In this document: positions 1,354-4,736 of the stretch, piece by piece
Layout: each line of letters begins with the position of its first letter
Position numbering within the stretch: the stretch's first letter is position 1
NCBI GenBank assembly: GCA_947494695.1
Contig: CANLWB010000009.1
Location: 186,001-250,000 of the forward strand
Direction of reading: 5' to 3'
DNA from: an uncultured Flavobacteriaceae bacterium
GTDB taxonomy: Bacteria; Bacteroidota; Bacteroidia; Flavobacteriales; Flavobacteriaceae
DNA: 64,000 nucleotides
Notes under the pieces: model-generated
Database searches by the model: none
What the model was told of the DNA's origin: nothing
What the model saw: only the letters and a program-made list of their open reading frames with translations
Made by a program: the position numbers and the translations under genes

Positions 1354-2670
1354 ATGAGTAAATCTATCTCGGGTTTTTCTAAACTAACCAAATCAAAAAA
1401 AATCGATTGGATTGTTGACACTTATTTTTCAAATACGGAAGAAGCTAAACGTGTTTTAATCCAATATTGGAATACAGATGAAAAACTGCAACAACTCCAT
1501 GATGAGTTTATTGAAAATACGATAACCAACTATTACCTGCCTTTGGGTGTGGCTCCTAATTTTTTAATTAACGATAGGCTTTACACGATTCCTATGGCTA
1601 TTGAAGAAAGTTCGGTAGTTGCTGCGGCGAGTAAAGCTGCAAAATTCTGGTTAGATCGCGGCGGATTTAAAACACGAGTTGTTTCGACCACCAAAATTGG
1701 TCAGGTCCATTTTATATATAAAGGTGATTTTAATAAATTAAGTCAGTTTTTTAGCGTCATAAAGTCTAAACTTATTGAGGATTCCAAATCGATTACGTCC
1801 AATATGGAAAAACGTGGCGGTGGAATTTTAGATATTGAATTGCGAGATAAGACTAAGGACATAGATCATTACTACCAACTTCACGCATCATTTGAAACCC
1901 TAGATGCTATGGGTGCTAATTTTATAAATTCCTGCCTGGAACAGTTTGCTACAACTTTTAAAAGAGAAGCTCTTGAATTTTATGCTTTCACTGAAGCTGA
2001 AAAGCAAATAGATATTGTCATGAGTATTTTATCTAATTATGTTCCAGATTGCTTAGTGCGTGCCGAAGTAAACTGTAAGGTTGAGGACTTAAGCGAAAGC
2101 GACTCCATATCTGGAGAGGCATTTGCGAAAAAGTTTGTACAGGCCATTAATATTGCTGAAGTAGAGCCTTACCGAGCCGTTACTCATAATAAAGGGATCA
2201 TGAATGGCATAGATGCCGTTGTTTTGGCTACTGGAAATGATTTTAGAGCTGTTGAAGCGGGCGTGCATGCCTATGCGTCCAGAAAAGGCACATACAGCAG
2301 CCTAACTCATGCTAAAATTGAAAACGGAATCTTCTCTTTTTGGATGGATATTCCATTAGCACTGGGTACTGTTGGCGGACTTACGGGTTTACATCCGTTA
2401 GTAAAATTAGCATTAGAGTTATTACATAAACCATCTGCTAAGGAACTTATGCAAATCGTTGCTGTTGCCGGTTTGGCTCAAAATTTCGCAGCTATTCGTT
2501 CACTCATCACAACGGGAATTCAGCAGGGACATATGAAAATGCATTTAATGAATATTCTTAATCAATTCGATGCAAATAACGAGGAAAAGGAAAGGATTAC
2601 CGCATACTTTAAGACGAATACCGTAACACATAGTGCCGTTGTTGAAGCCATTAATAAGTTGAGGGAGTAG
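1354..2670 (+). CDS. Hydroxymethylglutaryl-CoA reductase
   Basis: 438 aa; ENTITNYYLPLGVAPNFLIND, EESSVVAAASKAAKFW and GTVGGLTGLHPLVKLALELL are HMG-CoA reductase signatures. A GHMP kinase lies nearby. Confidence 0.93.
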   Translation: MSKSISGFSKLTKSKKIDWIVDTYFSNTEEAKRVLIQYWNTDEKLQQLHDEFIENTITNYYLPLGVAPNFLINDRLYTIPMAIEESSVVAAASKAAKFWLDRGGFKTRVVSTTKIGQVHFIYKGDFNKLSQFFSVIKSKLIEDSKSITSNMEKRGGGILDIELRDKTKDIDHYYQLHASFETLDAMGANFINSCLEQFATTFKREALEFYAFTEAEKQIDIVMSILSNYVPDCLVRAEVNCKVEDLSESDSISGEAFAKKFVQAINIAEVEPYRAVTHNKGIMNGIDAVVLATGNDFRAVEAGVHAYASRKGTYSSLTHAKIENGIFSFWMDIPLALGTVGGLTGLHPLVKLALELLHKPSAKELMQIVAVAGLAQNFAAIRSLITTGIQQGHMKMHLMNILNQFDANNEEKERITAYFKTNTVTHSAVVEAINKLRE

Positions 2671-2710
2671 GATTGGGTTATTAGGTAAAAATATTTATAA
2701 TGTATTACCG

Positions 2711-3160
2711 GTGACTAAGTGCCGGCCTGCCGCACGGGCAAGTAGTCGAAGCTACAAAACAATGACGGAACCTCTAAAAAATATTGGCAACATACAACAA
2801 TCAGTGATTTCGACTACGCTCAATCACCGCACAAAAATTAATACCACACCGGTGGCTGAGCGCAGCCGAAGCTACAAAACAATGACGGAATCTCTAAAAA
2901 ATATTAGCAACATACGACAATCAGTGATTTCGACTACGCTCAATCACCGTTCGACTACGCTCAATCACCGCACAAAAAGTAATACCACACCGGTGGCTGA
3001 GCGAAGTCGAAGCTACAAAACAATGACGGAATCTCTAAAAAATATTAGCAACATACAACAATCAGTGATTTCGACTACGCTCAATCACCGTTCGACTACG
3101 CTCAATCACCGCACAAAAAGTAATACCACACTGGTGGCTGAGCGCAGCCGAAGCCACATC
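2711..3160. repeat. Tandem array of ~140-165 bp units made of paired palindromic elements (upstream block, three units)
   Basis: Units contain GGTGGCTGAGCG[A/C]AG[T/C]CGAAGC...AATGACGGAATCTCTAAAAAATATT[A/G]GCAACATAC[A/G]ACAATCAGTGATTTCGACTACGCTCAATCACCG(TTCGACTACGCTCAATCACCG)CACAAAAA. Confidence 0.92.
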
Positions 3161-3173
3161 AATTTAACAGCAT

Positions 3174-3530
3174 ATGCCTAAAGGTTTTGTATATATATTA
3201 GAATGTTCAGATGGCACCTTTTACACGGGTAGCACCATTGATTTGGATAAAAGATTAGCGGAACATCAAAATGGTCAGGGAGCTAATCATACAAAGAAAA
3301 GACTTCCGGTTGAGCTGGTATATATTCAGAAATTCCCAAGGATTGATGAGGCTTTCTATAGAGAGAAACAAATTCAGGGATGGAGCAGAAAAAAGAAACA
3401 AGCACTCATCGAAAACAATTTTGATGAATTAAAAAAATATGCTGAATGCATGAATGATAGTCATTATAAAGAGTGGCTTCGACTACGCTCAGCCACCGCA
3501 GATCATAAAAAAAATGAAGATCAGAAATAA
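3174..3530 (+). CDS. Single-domain GIY-YIG nuclease
   Basis: MPKGFVYILECSDGTFYTGSTIDLDKRLAEHQNGQGANHTKKRLPVELVYIQKFPRIDEAFYREKQIQGWSRKKKQALI is a complete GIY-YIG (UvrC/YhbQ-like) domain. Confidence 0.95.
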   Translation: MPKGFVYILECSDGTFYTGSTIDLDKRLAEHQNGQGANHTKKRLPVELVYIQKFPRIDEAFYREKQIQGWSRKKKQALIENNFDELKKYAECMNDSHYKEWLRLRSATADHKKNEDQK

Positions 3531-3780
3531 AGACCTGTCAATACTTATTTCGACAACGCTCAATCACCACACAACAAATAACTCTAAACCGGTGGCTGAG
3601 CGAAGTCGAAGCCACAAAACAATGACGGAATCTCTAAAAAATATTGGCAACATACAACAATCAGTGATTTCGACTACGCTCAATCACCGTTCGACTACGC
3701 TCAATCACCGCACAAAAATTAATACTAAACCGGTGGCTGAGCGCCCGCCTGCCGGACGGGCAGGAAGTCGAAGCCATAAC
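3473..3780. repeat. Downstream block of the same palindromic repeat family, overlapping the 3' end of the GIY-YIG gene
   Basis: gtggcttcgactacgctcagccac at 3473-3497 lies inside the CDS; a full unit follows at about 3545-3780 with a nested cccgcctgccggacgggcagg palindrome. Confidence 0.9.
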
Positions 3781-3827: not shown

Positions 3828-4736
3828 ATGAGGAACCCTATTTATAGTAATGGAAAACTTTTACTCACTGGAGAATACGCTGTCCTTGATGGTGCACTGT
3901 CTTTAGCCGTGCCTACTAAATTCGGACAGTCCTTATCGGTCGAGGCCATCGACGTTCCCCAAATAATATGGAAAAGTTTGGATGAAAACGATGCTATTTG
4001 GTTTGAAACCGATATTTCTGTGGAACATATTAATTCGAATACCGTAACCAATCACGAGTATACAGATCGGCTTATTCAAATTTTAGGAGCTGCTAAAAAG
4101 CTTAATCCCGACTTTTTAAGTGATGGTCGTGGTTATAATGTTTCTACCAAACTGGATTTCCCAAGACATTGGGGGTTAGGCACCTCTTCGACATTAATAA
4201 ACAATATTGCTCAATGGGCCAATATTGATGCTTACAAGCTCTTAGAGCTGACCTTTGGTGGCAGTGGGTACGATATTGCATGTGCACAGCATGACTCTTC
4301 TATCCTTTATCAATTAGAACACAACAAACCTTTTGTAAAATTGGTAGATTTTAACCCAGTTTTTATAGATCATCTATACTTTGTATATCTAAACAAAAAA
4401 CAGAACAGCCGAGATGGCATAAGGCATTATAATGCCAATAAGACTAATTTAAAATCCGTTCTTGAAGATATTAACAAGATTACTTCTGAGGTGATTAATA
4501 CAGCCAACCTGGAGCATTTTGAAACCTTGATAGATAAACATGAAACCATCATATCTAAACTAACCAGGCAAGCCCCTGTTAAGACACGTCTCTTTAGTGA
4601 TTTTAAAGGCAGTATTAAAAGCCTTGGCGCCTGGGGAGGCGATTTTGTCCTGGCTACCACTAAGAACAACCCAATCACCTATTTTAAGGATAAAGGGTTT
4701 GAGACCGTAATTCGTTATAGTGATATGGTCTTATAA
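3828..4736 (+). CDS. GHMP kinase (mevalonate kinase-like)
   Basis: NGKLLLTGEYAVLDGALSLAVPT; WGLGTSSTLINNIAQW (GHMP Gly/Ser loop); GSGYDIACAQ; C-terminal GAWGGDFVLAT. Confidence 0.9.
   Translation: MRNPIYSNGKLLLTGEYAVLDGALSLAVPTKFGQSLSVEAIDVPQIIWKSLDENDAIWFETDISVEHINSNTVTNHEYTDRLIQILGAAKKLNPDFLSDGRGYNVSTKLDFPRHWGLGTSSTLINNIAQWANIDAYKLLELTFGGSGYDIACAQHDSSILYQLEHNKPFVKLVDFNPVFIDHLYFVYLNKKQNSRDGIRHYNANKTNLKSVLEDINKITSEVINTANLEHFETLIDKHETIISKLTRQAPVKTRLFSDFKGSIKSLGAWGGDFVLATTKNNPITYFKDKGFETVIRYSDMVL

Follow-up and report, generated by a model that had tools for sequence, protein, structure and literature searches.

Among the systems described so far, the closest kind to the locus analysed here is the Ssn family (Neisseria NTS; 2025 study), whose members are reportedly GIY-YIG nucleases that cut single strands site-specifically and are associated with genomic repeats; Ssn homologues are said to be widespread, with sequences of their own. 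Elsewhere among GIY-YIG proteins, Slx1 requires Slx4 and is not sequence-specific, and we know of no hairpin partner for the UPF0213 proteins. In RAYT/TnpA-REP systems (REPtrons), the enzyme gene is flanked by subclass-specific, dispersed GTAG REPs that are sometimes intragenic and that spread while the gene itself remains stable (PMC6006769, PMC3733652). CGTC REPs, which have a YGTC tag, a stem starting with AT and a CCA tail (Di Nocera et al. 2013, PMC3733652), were reported without a dedicated transposase in that 2013 survey.

The window analysed here is a 64-kb stretch (64,000 nucleotides) of the genome of an uncultured member of the Flavobacteriaceae, in which a GIY-YIG gene lies amid an array of hairpins. 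The initial annotation likened this arrangement to RAYT/REP loci, and the resemblance holds in that hairpins flank the gene, have copies dispersed elsewhere, match the subclass in type and have inserted within genes. Unlike a REPtron, the window enzyme is a GIY-YIG protein rather than HUH/Y1_Tnp, and its hairpins lack the GTAG foot and have the inner motif TCGA..CTC; the system would thus work like a REPtron without being one. Like the Ssn systems, the window system has a small GIY-YIG protein and a cognate repeat near the gene with many dispersed copies; unlike them, the hairpins that form its proposed target class keep TCGA..CTC fixed, have freely covarying stems, and occur in tandem arrays and within genes. 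The window hairpins also differ from CGTC REPs in having no CGTC tag, and form a sister hairpin class associated with another GIY-YIG clade. A literature search that did not reach the 2025 Ssn study found no report of stem-TCGA...CTC-stem' hairpins.

The GIY-YIG gene and its hairpin array

The gene (3174..3530, + strand) encodes 118 aa and matches PF01541 (E=3.7e-19, profile search). The protein has the GIY-YIG domain and the catalytic Tyr, Arg, His and Glu that define the superfamily; Y7, Y17, G19, R27, H31 and E64 are kept in 99-100% of 173 relatives, and the gene is catalytically intact as judged from its sequence. Structure prediction gives a catalytic core at aa 1-80 (AF2 pLDDT 85-92) and a low-confidence tail from about aa 91 (48-59 for aa 91-118). 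The predicted fold is that of UPF0213 (1zg2, 1ywl) and Slx1: Foldseek searches with the predicted structure ranked UPF0213 proteins first, followed by Slx1, and 1zg2 was matched by sequence at 1.6e-17. The closest relatives are from Flavivirga, Bizionia, Winogradskyella and other Flavobacteriaceae. The gene had been called ‘lone’, which is true locally, but six other GIY-YIG loci are present in the genome. A group I intron homing endonuclease was rejected as an identity (TIGR01453, 24.5 bits vs. a cut-off of 56; gene intergenic; no Rfam family above threshold). The array gave merely sub-threshold MIR397 matches in Rfam, while PADLOC returned no match and PHROGs weak matches alone.

The locus is bounded on the left by a HMG-CoA reductase gene (1354..2670, +; PF00368, 6e-95) and on the right by a GHMP-kinase-like gene (3828..4736, +), the name of which is inferred, without a Pfam match. 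A 156-aa ORF (2711-3181) is an open frame across the array and has no Pfam match. A repeat scan confirmed the four-unit array described in the initial annotation, with three units upstream of the GIY-YIG gene and one downstream (86-nt copies at 2744, 2864, 3005 and 3604; identity 95-98%). A scan of the window for the core TGAGCGNAGYCGAA (≤1 mismatch) gives 15 occurrences (0.09 expected), 13 of them within the array. In the whole genome the array spacer is confined to the four units, indicating that the array arose by local duplication in tandem; a mobile unit of ~140 bp is ruled out by the same restriction of the spacer to the window.

In a correction to the initial annotation, the first and last palindromes (2707..2757 and 3729..3779, both +) each have their loop interrupted by a further palindrome, CCNGCCTGCCGNNCGGGCAGG (2722-2742 and 3744-3764), which reads CCCGCCTGCCGGACGGGCAGG in the last hairpin; the first was delimited by repeat D4, a palindrome scan and the sequence, the last by repeat and palindrome scans. 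Repeat and core scans place the unit 1 hairpin GTGATTTCGACTACGCTCAATCAC at 2803..2831 (-), the unit 2 hairpin GGTGGCTGAGCGCAGCCGAAGCTAC at 2850..2875 (+), the unit 3 hairpin GGTGGCTGAGCGAAGTCGAAGCTAC at 2991..3016 (+) and the downstream unit hairpin GGTGGCTGAGCGAAGTCGAAGCCAC at 3590..3615 (+). The same scans find two hairpin cores, 21 nt apart, at the end of unit 2 (2923..2972, -), at the end of unit 3 (3064..3113, -) and in the downstream unit (3663..3712, -). A degraded hairpin, its core with one mismatch, lies at 3543..3571 (-; core scan). The hairpin closest to the start codon (3133..3157, +; core scan and orientation survey) is in the orientation GAG..TCGA, the usual upstream orientation of the clade. 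It forms an inverted pair flanking the GIY-YIG gene with a hairpin in the orientation TCGA..CTC (3472..3498, -; inverted repeat I4; core 3478-3491), which lies within the 3' end of the GIY-YIG frame and encodes aa 101-108.

Such inverted flanking by T1 hairpins, the type found in the window, is directional across the set (40 loci one way vs. 9 the other; P=9e-6). T1 stems covary, with pairing kept while the bases vary: pairing was 0.94/0.91/0.92/0.62/0.48 in 341 distinct copies, vs. 0.65/0.36/0.44/0.44/0.33 for shuffled arms. DNA folding gives a stem with an irregular inner loop for most hairpin types.

The GIY-YIG gene lies beside HMG-CoA reductase in 33 loci of the set, which indicates that the position is old, and dN/dS (0.03-0.08 among congeners, where estimable) shows that the gene is under strong purifying selection. 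Old, vertically kept and with low dN/dS, the window gene is not a freshly jumping element. The gene is present at this locus in 4 of 12 congeners; in the other 8 the site is empty and HMG-CoA reductase abuts the GHMP-kinase-like gene with a gap of 18-64 bp. The number of hairpins at the site is just 2-4 in congeners, vs. the larger array of the window. As for insertion-sequence features, inverted flanking hairpins are present and target duplication is absent at the empty sites among congeners. In filled sites the beginning of the downstream gene is overlapped by the last hairpin. At the HMG-CoA reductase/GHMP-like junction (L200, L209), the downstream frame of gene-carrying congeners appears to cross the hairpin, which would alter its N-terminus.

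Hairpin enrichment and the match of hairpin type to enzyme clade

The core TGAGCGNAGYCGAA has 84 exact copies in the genome, vs. 0 for a reversed-pattern control. Of 200 genomes surveyed across the family, 124 have the core and 75 the GIY-YIG gene; core density was 0.7-1.0/kb within 300 bp of the gene and ~0.01-0.03/kb beyond 1 kb. One of five hairpin types lies ≤400 bp from 82 of 87 family GIY-YIG genes; among control windows of the same size, 17 of 374 contain one. When loci were retrieved with only the protein as query, 77 of 81 GIY-YIG matches had a hairpin type within 400 bp. The core also clusters at the gene in 80 loci fetched with the protein alone. The enrichment of palindromes within 300 bp of GIY-YIG genes that the initial annotation anticipated was a preset test, and it came out at ~40-fold. 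Its expectation that palindromes be scarce where the GIY-YIG clade is missing is borne out by medians of 8 hairpin copies in genomes with the gene and 0 in those without (P=7e-15), but not by some congeners without a window-type gene, which have 78-130 cores.

Loci without the exact T1 core have sister hairpins, all of which fit stem-TCGA...CTC-stem', and the exact T1 core is ruled out as the sole target given the many loci with sister types. With the rule stem≥5-TCGA..CTC-stem', set after the data were seen, 98 hairpins were found within 300 bp (1.88/kb), vs. 0.02-0.07/kb at 1-8 kb; eight altered motifs yielded almost no hairpins. The five types are T1 TTCGRCTNCGCTCA, T2 TTCGACARGCTCA, T3 TTCGAGANCCTCA, T4 TCGATAC..CACTC and T5 TCGACTNCGCTCGA, together covering 163 of 174 GIY-YIG genes, and 97% of the hairpins near a gene are of that gene's main type. 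On the protein tree, hairpin type changes 14 times (shuffled mean 66.7), a clustering that is partly common descent, with named and unnamed sets sharing a few species. Paralogs within one genome also differ in hairpin type (e.g., G107, G142, G160, G133, G055).

The median number of T1 cores per genome is 27 with a T1-type GIY-YIG gene, 5.5 with another GIY-YIG gene and 0 with none. T1 cores are common in all congeners but one; the minimum, 18, is in the sole congener without a GIY-YIG match at E<1e-12. The congeners rich in T1 cores without a window-type gene (G200, G206, G207; 78-130 cores) rule out that gene as the only driver of T1 copies, and suggest that either other GIY-YIG paralogs serve these hairpins or the copies outlast the enzyme. 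The N base of the core is mostly T with a window-type gene (81/128) and mostly C without (86/106), based on two genomes per side.

Hairpins in coding DNA and paralogs with other palindromes

The hairpin islands read in the window's own genome are nearly all intergenic. A loop of argS was compared in 12 species: 5, including the window's own, have a hairpin or decayed form in one orientation, 2 have the opposite orientation, 2 have nested forms and 3 (G019, G209, G202) have no hairpin. This shows that hairpins were gained in coding DNA in the past; the argS data do not indicate the enzyme responsible. Neither a target-site duplication nor an exact excision of a single copy was seen; at argS, loop sequence was replaced and no clean unit added. 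The argS hairpin (L243:2001, L252-L263) is inserted in frame, in either orientation among congeners.

Three further observations concern T1 sequences. A T1 hairpin at L241:2001 lies inside a 547-aa frame that, by eye, resembles a pyruvate dehydrogenase E2 linker. A second large T1 array, with units of ~123 bp and no GIY-YIG gene (L226:2001-3050), is possibly a site of gene loss. Six near-identical copies (L216, L219, L220, L222, L239, L242) of a >200-bp repeat starting TTAATCAAAAAGAATTCCTCGACGC include the T1 core as part of a larger hairpin.

One diverged GIY-YIG paralog (L230), with 36% identity, has TGTCATTCCTGCGAAGGCAGGAATCCA on its flanks; the genome has 21 copies of this sequence at ≤1 mismatch. 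At this locus (L230:1926-2516, contig C3 of the same genome) one CGTC-type REP lies upstream and three downstream, inverted. The features that define CGTC REPs are present at the paralog locus (L230/L283) and missing from the window hairpins. CGTC-type REPs lie within 400 bp of 17 of 30 phylum-wide relatives of this paralog, at 1.9/kb near the gene vs. 0.18/kb in the flanks, with altered tags giving approximately zero.

Two further GIY-YIG paralogs are located in other palindrome arrays. At L231:1587-2600 (contig C9:151678-152691 of the same genome), three GIY-YIG genes in 310-bp tandem units lie beside an intact tRNA-Arg(tcg), and each unit repeats the 5' part of the tRNA, split by the palindrome CCTGCCTGCCGGCAGGCAGG. 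The genome also encodes three Y1_Tnp genes. Two nearly identical Y1 (RAYT-like) genes on contig C17:1695-3521 (L250, L235) lie among a different palindrome, GCTACCGCTAGCATTTGCTAGTGGCG. A RAYT was rejected as driver of the window hairpins on the grounds that these C17 genes, two of the three Y1_Tnp genes and the one cluster read, are surrounded by that other palindrome.

A candidate enzyme-target system

We consider it probable (about 0.78) that the GIY-YIG protein is the enzyme, and the hairpins the target, of one matched system, with the protein acting as a small structure- and sequence-specific endonuclease. Enzyme and hairpin type change together across hundreds of related genes, which makes a matched pair very probable; that the protein binds and cuts the hairpins we infer from these sequence comparisons. 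The cognate target would be stem-TCGA...CTC-stem'. Its inner motif is constant, its stem can have any bases that pair, and a further hairpin may take the place of its loop. Copies of this hairpin lie in inverted orientation immediately ahead of the start codon and at the gene's 3' end, with others dispersed and mostly intergenic. The enzyme probably acts on a single-stranded or extruded target (replication fork, DNA uptake, cruciform), and a nick at the hairpin, followed by repair or recombination there, could spread, tandemly duplicate or replace hairpins. It is plausible that the enzyme moves hairpins, and cutting as the driver of their spread is likewise merely plausible. Against a matched system, the pairing could also arise from a gene landing beside hairpins, with no action on the dispersed copies, and T1 cores are abundant in the three congeners without a window-type gene.

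A rival explanation, raised as a possibility in the initial annotation, is a REP-mobilising system; here the GIY-YIG nuclease would make new hairpin copies as RAYT does for GTAG REPs. The dispersal of hairpin copies in the genome, the argS-loop hairpins gained in either orientation and absent from three species, the near-identical longer repeats with the core, and the greater number of cores where a type-matched gene exists all favor it, but neither target-site duplication nor exact single-copy excision was seen and the argS changes exchange loop sequence without a clean unit being added. Moreover, GIY-YIG enzymes are hydrolytic and, to our knowledge, have no strand-joining activity, so mobilisation would need host repair, which counts against this explanation; we regard it as tentative, at somewhat less than even odds. 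The gene might instead be part of a selfish, homing-like unit that copies itself, with its inverted flanking hairpins, into hairpin targets, the dispersed hairpins being landing sites or remnants. The fixed orientation of the flanking hairpins, the filled and empty sites among congeners and the three tandem GIY-YIG genes beside tRNA-Arg, with a palindrome each, are consistent with such a unit; we think it unlikely for the window gene, which is old at its place beside HMG-CoA reductase, under strong purifying selection and in single copy at the locus. It is highly improbable that the GIY-YIG gene is just a neighbor of hairpins that are transcription terminators or REPs moved by Y1 (RAYT-like) transposases. 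The three Y1_Tnp genes and the mostly intergenic location of the hairpins would fit, but the Y1 genes in the one cluster read (2 of 3) are amid a different palindrome, hairpin type matches GIY-YIG clade and paralog, and hairpins occur in coding DNA too.

Beyond the matched enzyme-target system proposed for the window, GIY-YIG nucleases might be a second, non-HUH class of REP-associated enzymes, with separate clades generating and spreading separate hairpin superfamilies, including the CGTC REPs; this generalization is speculative and we lean against it at present. REP-like hairpins rank with the most common repeats of bacteria, and for many of their families no enzyme is known. The nuclease family and its hairpin type shift in step across Bacteroidota and some other phyla, so that sequence itself points to enzyme-target pairs, each of which can be tested separately. 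For CGTC REPs, the family supplies a specific candidate for the enzyme they have lacked; it also provides naturally diverged nucleases whose predicted hairpin targets differ from one another.
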